The notes beneath the pieces are model-generated. The model saw nothing but the letters and a program-made list of their open reading frames with translations, made no database searches and had not been told where the DNA came from. A stretch of DNA of 20,462 bases from a virus: IMG/VR virus record IMGVR_UViG_3300049491_000027, positions 1-20,462 of that record. The stretch is one strand, 5' to 3'. Every line of letters starts with the position of its first letter. The first letter of the stretch is position 1. Positions 5,878-19,550 of the stretch are shown in pieces. A program made the translations under genes and the position numbers.

Positions 5878-6942
5878 TCAGCCGACCGGGATCAGCAGAA
5901 TCGACAACTGGGCGTCCTTGCGGTTGAACAGGTACGCCCCGGCGATGCCGTCATTAAATAGATTGGCGTATATCGTCGCTGTGGCGCCGGTGGAGCCGGC
6001 CGCCAGTACACCGACACCGTTGTCGGGTGTGACCGCGACACTGGTCGCGCTGGGACTGGAGTAGTGCGGCACAATCGTCGTCCACGTCGAACTGTTACCG
6101 AACCCGCGGGCGATCAACGTCCCCGACGTGGCGTGCCCCAACCGGACCTCGCAACCCAGGATCAAAGGATCACTGTCAGCTTCCACACCGACCGCACGAA
6201 TATGTCCATGCACCCACGGGATGCAGTCGAAGTCCTGCGGCGGGATGACAAAGCTAGCGATCTGCTGCCTCGTTGCGATCCCCGTAAAATTCGTGAAATT
6301 GGCTTCGGGAACCGAGAAAGTCAGCGGGACGATGGTGCCGACCGGTTTCGGACTGTAGTTGGTGCCGTCCCACACAATCGTGTCACCGATATCAGGTGCC
6401 CCAGTGGTCGTCTCGTCGTAATCCGTAGCGTCACGGATGGTCGCGTTGTCGCCCTGCGGCCCCTGCGGCGCCTTCAGTTTGAAATGCCAACCGGGATTCG
6501 CGGCAGTACCGGTGACGATGATCTCCGACGCCAGGTCATCATCGAGCGGGTCGACCAGCTCCACCGTCGGGCTGATGTCCGGTACGGGTCCGGGCGGGCC
6601 TTGCGTGCCCATCGCATACGCCCGATATTGGTCGCCGTCCCAGACGTAAACCTGGTTGCCGATCCACCACGCTTTACCGATATCCGACTCGTCGTCGGTC
6701 AGATCATCAGGCAGATCCTCCACCTCGGTGATCGACGACCACTGCATGTCCACAATCGGTGCGTTCACACCCGGATTGCCCTTCGGGCCGACCAGCGCAT
6801 CCAACGTGATCGCACCATCGTTGCCCAAAATCTCGAAGCTGCCGGACATCATCGACGGGGTATCCAGATCACTGACCACCCCCCAGATGTGGCAATTTGT
6901 GAGGATAGAGCCCAAGTAAACGGCGTCGCCCGGGGCGGTCAT
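5878..6942 (-). CDS. Collagen-like minor tail protein
   Basis: A 354-residue tail protein of a class common in mycobacteriophages. Short Gly-X-Y runs occur at residues 52-58 (GPKGNPG), 112-119 (GTQGPPGP) and 158-165 (APQGPQGD), alternating with small beta modules; two of these show W-x-G-N-x-x-Y-V-W-D-G and G-D-T-I-V-W-D-G patterns (residues 92-104, 186-196). The acidic run 'EDLPDDLTDDESDIG' follows the first collagen triplets. The last 145 residues (VPLTFSVPEANFTNF to the end) are beta-rich with no obvious motif and may form a receptor-binding or trimer-capping head. ATG at 6940-6942 forms ATGA with the HNH stop. Fibre role is inferred from family and neighbours. Confidence 0.85.
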   Translation of the reverse strand: MTAPGDAVYLGSILTNCHIWGVVSDLDTPSMMSGSFEILGNDGAITLDALVGPKGNPGVNAPIVDMQWSSITEVEDLPDDLTDDESDIGKAWWIGNQVYVWDGDQYRAYAMGTQGPPGPVPDISPTVELVDPLDDDLASEIIVTGTAANPGWHFKLKAPQGPQGDNATIRDATDYDETTTGAPDIGDTIVWDGTNYSPKPVGTIVPLTFSVPEANFTNFTGIATRQQIASFVIPPQDFDCIPWVHGHIRAVGVEADSDPLILGCEVRLGHATSGTLIARGFGNSSTWTTIVPHYSSPSATSVAVTPDNGVGVLAAGSTGATATIYANLFNDGIAGAYLFNRKDAQLSILLIPVG

Positions 6943-7442
6943 GCTGCGACCTTTCTCAGTCTGAGAGCTTTCTGACGGGCTCTGTCACAGGTTCCGCAGT
7001 ATCGCGCTCGGAATTTGCCGTGCACGAAACGTGCCATGTCGAGTGGGTGCCCTTGCGGGCAGTGAGTCTTGTTGGCGTTCTGGTTGTTTCCGTGGCGCAC
7101 CTTGTCGTACTGGTTCTCCGACGGCGTCCCCCAGTACAGGTTCTCGATTGTGTTGTTCGCTGGGTCGCCGTCGCGGTGCAACGCCCACATACCTTCCGGG
7201 CGTGGATCGCCGAACGCTTCGAGAACCAGTTGGTGAACGGCGCGGCGGACGGGTTTTGTATCCCGGTAGAGCGTTACGCGACGGTGTCCGTACTTGTTAC
7301 GGGACTCCCCGTTGAGGATCTTGCCGTCGTGCCAGCATTGGGTGCCCCATCGGTTGTTCCGATAGTGTCCGAGGGATCTGACTCTGCCTGCGGAACTGAC
7401 TTCGTAGTCATGCCCGGTGATGGGTCGCCATTCCTCAGTCAA
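6939..7442 (-). CDS. HNH endonuclease with NUMOD4-type motif (free-standing homing endonuclease)
   Basis: A 167-residue nuclease. Residues 3-26 carry the NUMOD4-like EEWRPITGHDYEVSSAGRVRSL motif. The HNH core is VH70QLVLEAFGDP, then LH89RDGDPANNTIENLYWGT (N96/N97/N101, W104), a canonical beta-beta-alpha-metal arrangement with the second His and the Asn present. C-terminal C128-P-x-G-H132 ... Y-C149-x2-C152 looks like a zinc finger, often used for DNA recognition in such enzymes. It likely cuts an uninserted copy of the genome, spreading itself. The TTG start (7440-7442) overlaps the previous gene's TGA by 3 bases and has GGAG 6 bases upstream. Its TGA overlaps the next ATG by 4 bases (ATGA). 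Codon use looks less GC-rich than neighbours. Not a virion protein by sequence. Confidence 0.9.
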   Translation of the reverse strand: MTEEWRPITGHDYEVSSAGRVRSLGHYRNNRWGTQCWHDGKILNGESRNKYGHRRVTLYRDTKPVRRAVHQLVLEAFGDPRPEGMWALHRDGDPANNTIENLYWGTPSENQYDKVRHGNNQNANKTHCPQGHPLDMARFVHGKFRARYCGTCDRARQKALRLRKVAA

Positions 7443-7909
7443 GTTGTACTCCAATCGGTTTCGGTATCGGGTTCGTCGGTGATGCTGACGAACGGCTGCA
7501 CCGACCACAGCGCCGGCTGATGCTCCGGGGCTGGTGGTGCGAGTCCGAGTCGGCGTTTCGCTTCCAGCCTCAAATGGTCAGGTAGGGCTTCGATCTGTGC
7601 GACGGTCATCTGCTCGAGGTCGGCCAGCGGATCATCCGGGGCGCTGGGTGGCACCCATGTGACGGCGTCTTCCATGACACCCGGCCCGTACACCCGCTGC
7701 TTCTTGATCAGCGGATCGTCGTATTCCTCGATGAGCGGTAAACCATCGGTGTTGTTCGGTTTACGCCAACCGTCTCTGGTGAGATGCCAGCACACCCACG
7801 CCTTTATGCCGGAGGCGTCCATGACCGACCCGTCTTTCGCGACGGGATAGTGCAGCGAGTCGAGCATCTGCCCATACACGGCGGACAGGTAGGCGTTACG
7901 GTCCATCAT
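7439..7909 (-). CDS. Gene-29-family (DUF2744-like) phage protein
   Basis: A 156-residue protein resembling the conserved actinophage family that lies just after the two large minor tail genes (gene 29 in L5). Supporting sequence: SGIKAWVCWHLTRDGW, then 'DPLIKKQRVYGPGVMEDAVTWVPPSAPDDPLADLEQMTVAQIEALPDHLRLEAKRRLG', the highly conserved block of the family. The C terminus is Pro/Thr/Asp-rich. Function is not established; probably tail assembly or structure. Two adjacent ATGs (7907-7909 and 7904-7906) both overlap the upstream TGA; either is possible, and I use the first. An upstream ATG at 7981 would overlap the small gene by 76 bases. Stop TGA at 7439 overlaps the TTG of the HNH gene by 3 bases. 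Confidence 0.78.
   Translation of the reverse strand: MMDRNAYLSAVYGQMLDSLHYPVAKDGSVMDASGIKAWVCWHLTRDGWRKPNNTDGLPLIEEYDDPLIKKQRVYGPGVMEDAVTWVPPSAPDDPLADLEQMTVAQIEALPDHLRLEAKRRLGLAPPAPEHQPALWSVQPFVSITDEPDTETDWSTT
7449..7452 (-). promoter_or_regulatory. Shine-Dalgarno of the HNH gene, deciding a TTG start
   Basis: GGAG lies 6 bases before the TTG at 7440-7442, inside the end of the previous gene. It supports TTG over the ATG at 7508, which would overlap the previous gene by 70 bases. Confidence 0.7.
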
Positions 7910-15132: not shown

Positions 15133-15705
15133 TTAAGCGATTCCGTTGTCGGTCCAGGTGTAGACGTGGTTGCCGGTGGCGTCCTCGAACACCTCCAGTT
15201 CGACCTCGTATTCGATGGTGTCGGTGTGGACGCGGACCACGTCGCCTATGGAGGTGATCTGCCCGTCGGGGATGTAGTCCCGGTAGAACGCGCCGTCGTC
15301 GCCGAGTTCGGTGTCGGTGGTGTCGAACACCCACGACTTGTGCGGCAGCTTCTTCTTGTTCTTCGTGATCGCGACCTCGCTGCCGGTCACGGTCACGTTG
15401 TCCTCGCCGTAAACCGCTTTCAGCACATCCGCGTTCAGCGATTCGAGCAGCACGAACTTGTAGGTGTGGGTGTAGTCGGTTTGCAGGACTTTGACGGTGG
15501 CGCCGCCGAAGTTCTTTTTCTTCTCAATGGAGCGGTCGGTGGTTTCGGTGATGCCGTCCTCACCCAAATGGCCGAGGTCGGTCCAGTCGGCGGGGTCCAG
15601 CGCGGTGGTTGCGTCGGTCGGGCCGGCCGTACCCAGATCCGCCACCAGGCAGGAACCGGTCGCCAAGGGTTCGGCGGCGTACACATTTTTGGTGTCAGAA
15701 GCCAT
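15133..15705 (-). CDS. Major tail (tube) protein
   Basis: The 190-residue protein polymerises as stacked hexameric rings into the tail tube. The sequence has the mycobacteriophage-type tube pattern: an N terminus NVYAAEPLATGSCLVADLGT, an Asp-Pro-Ala-Asp-Trp-x-Asp-Leu-Gly-His-Leu-Gly-Glu-Asp-Gly segment, DRSIEKKKNFGGATVKVLQTDYT (the conserved basic KKK-x-FGG loop), strands TYKFVLLESLNADVLKAVYG, and an alternating strand region ending 'DTIEYEVELEVFEDATGNH'. Spacing relative to the chaperone genes is the standard one. The ATG start at 15705 is preceded by AAAGG about 11 bases upstream. No Ig-like C-terminal extension is present, so the tail surface is probably smooth. It stops 12 bases before the chaperone start. 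Confidence 0.9.
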   Translation of the reverse strand: MASDTKNVYAAEPLATGSCLVADLGTAGPTDATTALDPADWTDLGHLGEDGITETTDRSIEKKKNFGGATVKVLQTDYTHTYKFVLLESLNADVLKAVYGEDNVTVTGSEVAITKNKKKLPHKSWVFDTTDTELGDDGAFYRDYIPDGQITSIGDVVRVHTDTIEYEVELEVFEDATGNHVYTWTDNGIA

Positions 15706-16430: not shown

Positions 16431-16775
16431 TCACCCGGTCACTCTCTTGAGTTTCAAGATGGTGCCCGGATTCCACTGATGGAACCCATAGTTCGCGTCC
16501 TCGACAGCGACCACCTCGAACGCACCCGGCCCGAACCCGACCGGCAGGGTGAGACGGTCCCGCACCGACACCACCGTGCCGGCGGGGACCGCCACATCCA
16601 CATCAGATACCACCCTCGAGGTGTAGCCGTTGACGGACTCCACCGCGCTCGGCTGGATAGCGATCACCCGCACATTGGTTGCGGCCGCCCACGATTCGGC
16701 GTCATTGCCGAGATCATCAGTGCCCGAACCGTTGAACACCTCATGCCCAACAATCCACGGGGTTGGGAAACTCAC
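16431..16775 (-). CDS. Head-to-tail stopper protein
   Basis: This 114-residue, beta-rich protein sits second after the capsid gene, where the stopper (SPP1 gp16-like), which plugs the DNA channel below the adaptor, is normally found. Recognisable features are the start SFPTPWIVGHEVFNG, an Asp/Asn-rich turn, RVIAIQPSAVE, a PAGTVVSVRDRLTLPVG segment and a C-terminal WNPGTILKLKRV strand, all typical of small beta-barrel neck proteins in actinophages. I choose GTG at 16773-16775: it gives a 4-base GTGA overlap with the adaptor stop and has GGGA 6 bases upstream. A GTG at 16785-16787 (MGFAV start, 118 residues) is the alternative. The next gene's ATG follows the TGA with no gap. Confidence 0.75.
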   Translation of the reverse strand: MSFPTPWIVGHEVFNGSGTDDLGNDAESWAAATNVRVIAIQPSAVESVNGYTSRVVSDVDVAVPAGTVVSVRDRLTLPVGFGPGAFEVVAVEDANYGFHQWNPGTILKLKRVTG

Positions 16776-17176
16776 GGCGAATCCCACACCGGAACATCGG
16801 ACAGGACGCCGCCGTTGGCGGGCATCAAATCAACTTCGAACGCATGTCCGGCCGTCGACGCCTTGCATAACTTCTCCAACTGTTCGATCTCCGACGGCCA
16901 GAACATGCCCCGGCGTTGTTGCCGGGTGTCGAACGCCTGCGAAAAGCCGAGCGCGGTCAACTGTTGTGACGCGCCGGTGCCGGAGTCGTGCCAGCGGAGG
17001 ATCGCCCCCCGGATGACGGCTTTGGCCGCATCCGGGTAGGCGAAATCCTCGGCCGTGATGCACGGTGCGTGCAGCACAGCCATCGCCAGCGCGTCCTCGA
17101 TCATCGCTTCGGCTTTCGCCTCTTCGATGTCGGCGAACGGCGCCAGGTCGTCGACGGTGATCGACACAGCGGGCAT
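16772..17176 (-). CDS. Head-to-tail adaptor (connector) protein
   Basis: A 134-residue protein encoded directly after the capsid gene, where siphophages place the HK97 gp6 / SPP1 gp15-like adaptor that docks under the portal. It is mostly helical: a 'VDDLAPFADIEEAKAEAMIEDALAMAVLHAPCI' stretch, then FAYPDAAKAVIRGAILRWHD, then LTALGFSQAFD, and a loop RRGMFWPSEIEQL. The acidic start 'SITVDDLAPFADIEEAKAEAMI', the AKAVIRGAILR helix and the R-x-x-FWP-x-EI loop are characteristic of actinophage adaptors. The ATG at 17174-17176 overlaps the capsid TAA by one base (TAATG), indicating translational coupling; a longer frame reaching 17593 exists but would run inside the capsid gene. A Gly/Asp-rich tail ends at DVPVWDSP. 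Confidence 0.83.
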   Translation of the reverse strand: MPAVSITVDDLAPFADIEEAKAEAMIEDALAMAVLHAPCITAEDFAYPDAAKAVIRGAILRWHDSGTGASQQLTALGFSQAFDTRQQRRGMFWPSEIEQLEKLCKASTAGHAFEVDLMPANGGVLSDVPVWDSP

Positions 17177-18423
17177 TAGAAGGCTGCTGTCCCTTTGGTA
17201 TAGGTAACAAACGCATCTGGGCTGCCCATCACAAATCCGTAATACGCCTCTACCAGGAGCAGAACGAGGTTCTCCTGGAACGCGGAGTGCCACGTCGAAC
17301 CGTCGTAGTACGACGCCTCCTGGCTGACGCGCACGCTGATGTCCATGCCGACGCCGTACACGGCTTGCGACCAGTCGCCGCCCACACCACGCAACAGGGT
17401 ATCGGTGCCGCCGGAACCGGACGCCACCACGGTCGCTTTCGATGCCGCCGCCGTGCCACCGGTCAGGGTGGTCTGGTTGACGGCGAACGGCGCCGCCGGT
17501 GCGGTCACACCCGACGCGACATCCACGAACGTGAACACATACGGGCCTGGTGCCGAGCCGGTGACCGTGACACCGGAGTAGATGCCGCCCCACGCCCGCA
17601 CCGCGGTCTGCAAGGTGGCGCCGGACACGTTGTATGCCTGGCTGGTGGAGTTCCCACCGGAGAACAGGGTGAACGTGCCACCGGTCGGGGTGCCGACGAG
17701 GGTGATGGTCTGCACCTTGTCGCCGGCCCGCACATACCGGCCGGAAACCCCGGTGTTGAATGCGGTTGGGAACCCGGCGATGGTGCCCGCCGAATGGCCC
17801 GCCGAGTTCACCGAGTCGGTGTACACGGGTCGGCCCTGCGTGTCGACCTGCAACTGGGCGTCGATCTTCAGTCGCGGGTCGGCGGCGATGCCGGTGAAGT
17901 CGTAGTTCTTGTCGATGACCCGGCCTGCGCCGGTGACCACATCGACATATATTCCGCCGGCCGCGGTGGAGGTTGTGCCCAGCGCGACAGTGTTCGTGGC
18001 GAGCGCCAGGTATTCGGTGAACGGTCCCGCCGCCCCGGTGCGCAGCGACAGTCCGTTGATGACGGCGTAGTCGAACGCTCGGGCGATGGCGACCGGAAGA
18101 TCCTGCTGCAACAGGTCGTACAGGCCGGCCGGGTTGGTCTTCGCGACCTCCTCGGACACGGGGACCAGCAGGGCGACCTTTTTGCCGGTCATCTGCTTGA
18201 CGCCGGTGCCGACCTGCGCGGCCGGTTTCACGCCGCCCTCTGCGACCCAGTCGGCGACGGGGACATCCATCGGGACGGGGATCGCGGTGTTGGCGCTGAC
18301 GGACAGCGGAACCCTGCGCGCCAAACTCTGCACGGCGGACAGTTCGGTGGCCTTGTTGAAGATCGGGCCGGTGATGGTGGGTGGTAGCAGGGTCGAAGAG
18401 ACCGAGCTGAGAGTAGTTGCCAT
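17176..18423 (-). CDS. Major capsid protein, HK97 fold, with an inserted Ig-like domain
   Basis: Forms the icosahedral shell. The 415-residue protein has the HK97-type layout: a short N-terminal arm, a segment 'PVPMDVPVADWVAEGGVKPAA' followed by VPVSEEVAK (E-loop/P-domain region), the helix 'DLPVAIARAFDYAVING' (spine helix), and a C-terminal P/A-domain end with GDWSQAVYGVGMDISVRVS, the 'SAFQENLVLLLVEAYYGF' strand-helix and DAFVTYTKG. No long N-terminal delta domain is present, consistent with the separate scaffold gene. Residues about 237-337 do not belong to the core: they read like a GTFTL...YN-x-SGATLQTAVRA...VTVTG-x-PGPYVFTF...LTGGT module, a beta-sandwich type seen repeatedly in phage structural proteins. 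The ATG start lies 15 bases after the scaffold stop with only a weak GAAAG upstream. Its TAA overlaps the next ATG by one base. Confidence 0.93.
   Translation of the reverse strand: MATTLSSVSSTLLPPTITGPIFNKATELSAVQSLARRVPLSVSANTAIPVPMDVPVADWVAEGGVKPAAQVGTGVKQMTGKKVALLVPVSEEVAKTNPAGLYDLLQQDLPVAIARAFDYAVINGLSLRTGAAGPFTEYLALATNTVALGTTSTAAGGIYVDVVTGAGRVIDKNYDFTGIAADPRLKIDAQLQVDTQGRPVYTDSVNSAGHSAGTIAGFPTAFNTGVSGRYVRAGDKVQTITLVGTPTGGTFTLFSGGNSTSQAYNVSGATLQTAVRAWGGIYSGVTVTGSAPGPYVFTFVDVASGVTAPAAPFAVNQTTLTGGTAAASKATVVASGSGGTDTLLRGVGGDWSQAVYGVGMDISVRVSQEASYYDGSTWHSAFQENLVLLLVEAYYGFVMGSPDAFVTYTKGTAAF
17413..17715 (-). other. Ig-like beta-sandwich insertion within the capsid protein (residues about 237-337)
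   Basis: Between the end of the 'SGRYVRAGDKV' segment and the conserved GDWSQAVYG strand lie about 100 residues very rich in Gly, Thr, Ser and Val. The internal pattern is TPTGGTFTLFSGG, QAYNVSGATLQTAVRA, VTVTGSAPGPYVFTF, FAVNQTTLTGGT. This matches the alternating-strand layout of small modules common in phage tail and capsid proteins. Its position in the peripheral/axial part of the HK97 fold suggests surface display. Boundaries are estimated from where the core family pattern stops and resumes. Confidence 0.65.
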
Positions 18424-18438
18424 TGGAATTTAGGCTTT

Positions 18439-18939
18439 CTATGTGTTGGAGAGCTGGTTTGACAGGAATGACGCGAACTGGCTGGCCGGACTGGTCGCCT
18501 CGAGCGGTGTCCGGCCCTGGTTCGGGTCAGGTTTCGGGGTCCGCGGTTTCGCGGCCTCCCCGATGAGTTCGAGGACATCCTTCGCTGACGCTTCGATCTC
18601 CTGACGGGTCGTGCCCGTCAGGAACTTCATCGCATTAGCGGGGACACCCTGTTCGGTTGCCACTTCGTAGCGGATCAGGGCCGCTTCGGCGGCGTCTGCC
18701 CGTGCTGTTTCGGCGGCGATTCGGTCGGTTGCCCGTTCGGCTTCCGACTTGGTTGCTTCCTCGAGCTGGTCGAGCCGGTTGGCTTTAGTTTTCAGTTCTC
18801 GGATCTGCGCCTTCTGGGCTGCAAGAGTTCTGACGAGGGGGTGATCGGGTGGGAATTCGTCTGGTTTCGGCTCGACAGTGTCATCGTCGGGTTCCGGTTC
18901 GGAGCCGTCGATCAGAGTGGGTGGAACGGGTTCGGTCAT
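18439..18939 (-). CDS. Capsid scaffolding protein
   Basis: Scaffolding proteins drive procapsid assembly around the portal and leave before DNA fills the head. This 166-residue product has the expected build: an acidic, Pro-rich N terminus (PEPDDDTVEPKPDEFPPDHP), a long charged coiled coil (about residues 38-90, rich in Ala/Glu/Lys/Arg, with AQKAQIRELKTKANRLDQLEE), and a C-terminal segment after a KPRTPKPDPNQ linker that would contact the capsid protein. It lies immediately before the major capsid gene, the usual place. I take the ATG at 18937-18939 because GGGAG lies 8 bases upstream (18948-18952); an in-frame TTG at 18954 would place that sequence inside the gene. Sequence identity to known scaffolds is not needed for this call, but the assignment rests on position and composition. 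Confidence 0.82.
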   Translation of the reverse strand: MTEPVPPTLIDGSEPEPDDDTVEPKPDEFPPDHPLVRTLAAQKAQIRELKTKANRLDQLEEATKSEAERATDRIAAETARADAAEAALIRYEVATEQGVPANAMKFLTGTTRQEIEASAKDVLELIGEAAKPRTPKPDPNQGRTPLEATSPASQFASFLSNQLSNT

Positions 18940-18964
18940 GCTTGTTGCTCCCAAGTTTTGGGTT

Positions 18965-19007: not shown

Positions 19008-19550
19008 TTACCAGGCTGGCGCGGCCGAGCATCCGCAGTGGTCGTGCGATTTGAACTGCACGCTCGTTTGCGTGTACACGGCTCCGCGTCCGATGAGCAT
19101 GGCGCAGAACGAACACTTGCCCGCCCCTGTGCGCTTCCAGCCCTTGGCTTTCGGGTCGGCGATGGACGAATGCATGACGGTGTCGCGGGCCGAGTTAGCT
19201 ATCCGGCGCTGCGCCCCGCCTTCGAGGTTGACGCGCGCCGCCTCGAAGTCCGGTTCCGGCTGCTGTAGCGGTGCGGTAGCCCACCCGACCAGTTCGTGTG
19301 CCCCTTTGTCGCCGAGGTCGGGGATGACCGCCGTGAAACGTCCGGCGATGCCGTCGGTTTCGCGTAGGTCGTCGTACCAGTCGGCGGCTAGTGCGGCTGC
19401 TGCCATGCTCCAGGTGTCGATGAAACCCGGCATCAACTCATGCAGGGCTTCGGTGATCTCATCGACCGTGGACAGTGCCCAGATGGCGGCTAGTTCTTCG
19501 AACGCGATGTCGTTGACTACCGCTACCTGTTCAGCCAGTTGGGGCGGCAT
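19008..19550 (-). CDS. MuF-like minor capsid protein (phage head morphogenesis family)
   Basis: This 180-residue protein follows the portal gene directly, the usual place of MuF / SPP1 gp7-like minor head proteins, which associate with the portal and are packaged in the procapsid. The diagnostic part is the C-terminal third: a cluster C146-x2-C149 ... G-x-V-Y-T ... H169-x-H171-C172-x-C174, the pattern expected of the MuF domain and probably a metal-binding site. The N-terminal 120 residues are helical and acidic. The ATG start at 19548-19550 overlaps the portal stop by 20 bases. Actinophage annotations sometimes call this gene a capsid maturation protease; I see no Ser-His protease signature, so I keep MuF-like. 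No C-terminal toxin extension is present, unlike some MuF polymorphic-toxin fusions. Confidence 0.82.
   Translation of the reverse strand: MPPQLAEQVAVVNDIAFEELAAIWALSTVDEITEALHELMPGFIDTWSMAAAALAADWYDDLRETDGIAGRFTAVIPDLGDKGAHELVGWATAPLQQPEPDFEAARVNLEGGAQRRIANSARDTVMHSSIADPKAKGWKRTGAGKCSFCAMLIGRGAVYTQTSVQFKSHDHCGCSAAPAW

Follow-up and report, generated by a model that had tools for sequence, protein, structure and literature searches.

The major capsid protein (MCP) encoded in the window, by which we mean the whole 20,462-base virus record analysed here, carries inside its HK97 core an additional domain of about 105 residues that belongs, by sequence profile and predicted fold, to the "C-terminal extension" (CTE) family of mycobacteriophage Bxb1. 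This shows that what is known as a C-terminal extension can also lie within the core of a capsid protein, where a large uncultured actinobacteriophage lineage has kept it. The CTE family, the idea of display and the slot in the A-domain are each already known; our literature search turned up no case of the combination, in which a CTE-family domain is inserted in the A-domain of an HK97 MCP and conserved by a lineage. None of the 50,697 cultured or deposited phage genomes compared has a record that covers 80% of the window MCP.

The capsid protein and its inserted domain

The window holds a siphovirus-type head-tail gene module on the minus strand, in the order portal, protease, scaffold, MCP, adaptors, tail terminator, tail tube, tape measure and minor tail proteins, and from portal to tail tube this is the order expected around an HK97-fold MCP. 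The portal (20448-19531), the VG15-like head maturation protease (19008..19550; PHROG 2.8e-33, Pfam VG15 1.8e-34) and the head scaffolding protein (18439..18954; PHROG 8.8e-26) precede the MCP (17176..18423), which is followed by a head-tail adaptor (16772..17173; PHROG 2.3e-46), all on the minus strand. The 415-residue product of the MCP reading frame matches Pfam Phage_capsid (PF05065, 2.7e-18, residues 12-227), NCBIfam TIGR01554 (1.7e-14, ending at residue 223) and the PHROG major head protein (3.6e-42), and its predicted model finds the capsid proteins of HK97 (1ohg, 1.2e-10) and Bxb1 (7.7e-18) with Foldseek. The curated HK97 models end at residues 223-227 in this protein, yet reach residue 303 in the Bxb1 MCP, which indicates that the core is interrupted here.

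Naming the parts by analogy with the HK97 fold, residues 1-232 (17728..18423, minus strand) make up the N-terminal core, with N-arm, E-loop, spine helix and most of the A-domain, as judged from the Pfam match and the secondary structure of the AlphaFold (AF2) model. Residues 339-415 (17179..17409, minus strand) make up the C-terminal core, with the end of the A-domain and the long P-domain strands (344-349, 354-367 and 386-399 in the AF2 model); they correspond to the second segments aligned by phmmer in the MCPs of Cozz and Bxb1. Between the two lies the inserted domain (17410..17727, minus strand), located by alignment with insert-free relatives, profile, Foldseek and AF2.

The borders are set most directly by the relatives. 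Most MCPs in 80 viral contigs with relatives of this protein (numbered with the prefix L) have about 415 residues and keep the segment, whereas those of L070-L080 have about 305 and are without it, at 53-58% identity to the window MCP. In the insert-free proteins the stretch SGKLIRQ joins directly to SGLADTGLRAIGGDWSQ; in the window MCP about 105 residues separate R232 from the block of D341 and GDWSQ, and since the extra residues fall there we place the insert at approximately residues 233-338. At this site the alignment counts 107 residues in the window MCP against 4 in the insert-free relatives. AlphaFold predicts the segment to form a domain of its own, rich in beta strands and including one helix, with a pLDDT of about 82-91 across residues 241-300 in the full monomer model and a mean of 73 for the insert folded alone. 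A preliminary description of this DNA had proposed a separate internal domain interrupting the HK97 core at 17413-17715 (residues 237-337), and both alignment and predicted structure bear this out: the segment is not common to all HK97 relatives, the motifs quoted for it are present in the insert, and its borders lie within four residues of ours at the N-terminal side and one at the C-terminal side.

Family membership and occurrence on other virion proteins

No family in Pfam or NCBIfam matched the insert, Big_2 included (no Pfam match at E 0.1), and in PHROG it matched only tail families, by way of those families' own copies of the domain. A profile built from 59 inserts (A2) and run with hmmsearch against all PDB chains identified the Bxb1 tail-tip protein gp23 (2.4e-28, three copies), the Bxb1 MCP (7.1e-9, at its C terminus) and the Bxb1 tail tube (1.3e-5), with nothing significant beyond these three proteins. 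Structural comparison of the isolated domain gave a similar picture, the seven best Foldseek matches being six Bxb1 chains and one chain of phage Patience (TM 0.54-0.65, E 6e-4 to 0.034) and the sole matches at E<0.1; the match to the Bxb1 MCP has an E-value of 6e-4, a probability of 1.0 and a TM of 0.61. The Bxb1 extensions (PDB IDs: 9d9w, 9d9x, 9d93, 9d94) are thus of the same family by both profile and fold, and are found on structural proteins of the virion, the MCP among them.

The domain had been called Ig-like in the preliminary description, a label that found no support as it stood. That the insert is a true Ig-like domain (Big_2, I-set or FN3) would agree with its setting, since surface proteins of the virion are the usual place for phage Ig-like domains and the insert is a beta-rich fold of roughly 100 residues, and the similarly placed extensions of LeBron and Wildcat have been described as Ig-like (PMC3029335). 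However, no Ig model in Pfam or NCBIfam matches the insert, while the LeBron MCP extension, as a positive control, matches Big_2 (8e-8) and reaches only 2 bits with the insert profile, on which grounds a Big_2 identity was rejected. Additionally, antibody folds appear in the Foldseek search only at E>1, and the predicted models have a conserved helix between strands. We consider a true Ig-like domain improbable; given its membership of the Bxb1 family, the insert can be called Ig-like in only the loosest sense, and the case cautions against giving that name to every extra beta domain of a phage.

In position the window insert departs from the Bxb1 extensions, which are C-terminal on both MCP and tail tube, whereas the window domain is internal (residues 233-338 of 415). 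A close parallel is the MCP of the M. abscessus prophage prophiBWHA-1, which combines a related HK97 core with the same domain and likewise has 415 residues, but carries the domain at the C terminus. The C-terminal position gave the Bxb1 examples their name and does not define the fold: both positions occur in the tail tubes of relatives of the window phage. The tail tube proteins of L021, L028, L029, L057 and L068 contain an internal copy that splits them into two halves (found by profile search, for instance at L021:5794-6906, L028:3886-4809 and L057:5796-6725), and the tail tube of L002 and gp31 of phage Gina have their copy at the C terminus. The same search of the window and its relatives found no CTE-family domain in the window's own tail tube protein (15133..15705, minus strand; Pfam Phage_TTP_17). 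Beyond these, large mycobacterial and Gordonia phages carry the domain in their tail sheaths.

Two related observations concern decoration in other phages. In Microcystis phage Mae-JY24 the same domain lies in the middle of a protein (L099:2348-3076) whose gene has that of the protease on one side and the following head gene on the other; to judge from this position, it is possibly a decoration protein. The tail tube of another relative (L039:5636-6484) ends instead in a C-terminal extension that is weakly Big_2-like, and the type of decoration therefore differs between close phages.

Distribution, history and selection

Searches with an insert-free MCP and with a further insert-bearing one returned 162 distinct MCP-like sequences, which split cleanly into insert-bearing and insert-free groups but for four exceptions, namely two truncated fragments and two spurious hits aligning to the insert alone. 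Streptomyces and Kitasatospora prophages are among the sources of insert-free MCPs; the insert is present in a prophage region of Leifsonia sp. Root227 (L082, 71% identical, with the same insert) and, in part, in a Mycobacterium contig. As related MCPs sit in prophages and contigs of these four genera, the window phage probably infects an actinobacterium.

In a tree of the core, built with the insert removed from 66 insert-bearing and 30 insert-free MCPs, two changes in the presence of the insert are needed and the starred branches force only one; with a quick tree method and long-branched outgroups, one or two gain or loss events is a minimum count that carries no direction. The domain is kept without exception in the 66 MCPs sampled from the insert-bearing group. 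Identity to the window protein ranges from 46 to 75% in the insert and from 57 to 86% in the core. The median pairwise dN/dS is 0.24 for the insert and 0.19 for the core (simple NG86 estimates over pairs that are not independent), so that the insert is under purifying selection, slightly more relaxed than the shell core, and these pairwise estimates gave no sign of positive selection on it. We conclude that the insert is not a chance product, since Bxb1 virion proteins match its profile, the 66 sampled MCPs keep it and its codons show purifying selection.

These data also bear on whether the domain is a neutral passenger that moves as a mobile module from one virion gene to another and persists because it is harmless. 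Its occurrence in many virion genes and positions would fit, as would some hints of exchange between relatives. In the trees of insert and core the window insert groups with L008 and the window core with L002, L003 and L005, but for the window congruence is not rejected by AU tests (p 0.095 and 0.54). The core data do reject another grouping that the insert favours (p-AU 0.011), which was picked post hoc after seeing the tree. Exchange of the domain between relatives is for these reasons only hinted at. A dN/dS well below 1, and retention over a divergence deep enough to bring core identity down to 57%, make a passenger very improbable.

Insertion site and proposed role

In the AF2 model the insert comes after the A-domain strands at residues 212-222 and before those at 344-349 and 354-367, which return to the P-domain. 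A similar arrangement is found in the coat protein of phage P22, where the I-domain (222-345) lies inside the A-domain and is followed by further A-domain (346-357), P-domain (358-416) and A-domain (417-430) segments (PMC9965877). The end of the insert is 77 residues from the C terminus, compared to 85 for the P22 I-domain, and this similarity suggests, by residue counting, that the insert occupies the same slot, the last A-domain loop. The preliminary description had called the site unusual, which is right for this domain family, C-terminal as it is in Bxb1, but not for the slot itself, already known from P22 (PMC9965877). The two domains appear to share the location but not the fold, the P22 I-domain being a six-stranded beta-barrel with no detectable relation to the insert, and with a known role in stabilising the capsid. 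Domains inserted into the HK97 fold are also known from crAssphage (its I-domain) and from family 2B encapsulins (the CBD) (PMC10172136, PMC12407261), though these are E-loop insertions with different folds, whereas the window insert appears to be in an A-domain loop.

The reading we favour, and hold to be somewhat probable, is that the insert is a free-standing CTE-family domain in the A-domain loop, facing outward, that serves as a weak multivalent adhesion module and is not needed for assembly. The HK97 shell would fold around the inserted domain, one copy per subunit would project outward (about 415 copies if the capsid is T=7), and the many copies together could provide a weak, multivalent hold on the actinobacterial envelope before the tail tip engages; for assembly the insert would be dispensable. 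In the phages compared here the family recurs on exposed parts of the virion only, namely the C terminus of the prophiBWHA-1 MCP, tail tubes and tail sheaths. Because related phages wear it at the ends of their shell and tail proteins, the insert probably studs the particle surface and may aid attachment to the host, and hundreds of copies can reasonably be expected on the outer surface. Both the C terminus and the I-domain of the P22 coat point outward (PMC9962691), and the capsid and tail extensions of Bxb1 are accessible to antibodies; the phage is viable after their removal, phiFW1 being an existing viable mutant, though they are not replaceable by foreign peptides (PMC8704799).

For adhesion the experimental example is phage Douge, whose Ig-like domains, carried by the MCP and the tail tube protein, attach to M. 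smegmatis cells as well as to LAM/AM and alpha-glucan, and which adsorbs more slowly to a host without surface AM (PMC13033339). Douge belongs to cluster L, as does LeBron, and its domain is for this reason probably of the Big_2 type, making it an analogue of the insert rather than a demonstrated homologue. Both phages have an extra beta domain on the MCP and the tail tube, the glycan binding having been measured for Douge; the LeBron domain is a C-terminal Big_2 not detectably homologous to the insert, a comparison that used the LeBron sequence. By this analogy the insert may plausibly bind glycans as well; our literature search found no report of binding by any CTE-family domain.

The main rival is structural reinforcement, in which the insert would contact neighbouring subunits or capsomers and stabilise the shell or its assembly, without adhesion, in the manner of the P22 I-domain, the D-loop of which stabilises the capsid across two-fold axes (PMC9962691). 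The apparent use of the same slot fits this role, as do the purifying selection and the fact that no separate decoration gene adjoining the MCP was recognised in a PHROG scan of the window, although one may lie elsewhere. Unlike a C-terminal CTE, the insert is anchored at both ends and is missing from none of the MCPs sampled in its lineage, and such anchoring and retention would also fit a structural role; it is the complete retention that keeps reinforcement viable as the main rival. Against it, the homologous Bxb1 extensions are dispensable for viability (PMC8704799), the insert-free relatives build capsids without the domain, no P22-like capsid is among the listed Foldseek matches of the insert, and the family is present on tail tubes and sheaths, where contacts between capsomers are irrelevant. 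Taken together we regard reinforcement as rather unlikely. As a natural example of a capsid display site anchored at both ends, the insert could be used to find out whether such modules act in adhesion or strengthen the shell.

There is also a wider reading, which we put forward tentatively and would rate as possible rather than probable: the last A-domain loop may be a general display site of the HK97 fold that has received a mobile surface module, with the same module also inserted into tail tubes and appended at the C termini of capsid and tail proteins, so that one adhesion domain would be shuffled across the whole virion of actinobacteriophages.

Several genes in the tail part of the window, all on the minus strand, are of separate interest. 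The gene that ends the tail block (682-2775) encodes a CotH kinase domain (7.9e-37) together with a fibronectin type III domain and a weak laminin-G match; homologues with 44% identity are found in mycobacteriophages of about 113 kb, such as HokkenD, where they are annotated as kinase, minor tail protein or hypothetical. An HNH endonuclease with a NUMOD4 motif (6939-7508) is flanked by two minor tail genes and is probably a free-standing homing endonuclease. Lastly, the product of 3053-3499 matches the family of the podophage GP4 fiber-tail adaptor gp77 (4.6e-23), within an otherwise siphovirus-like block of genes.
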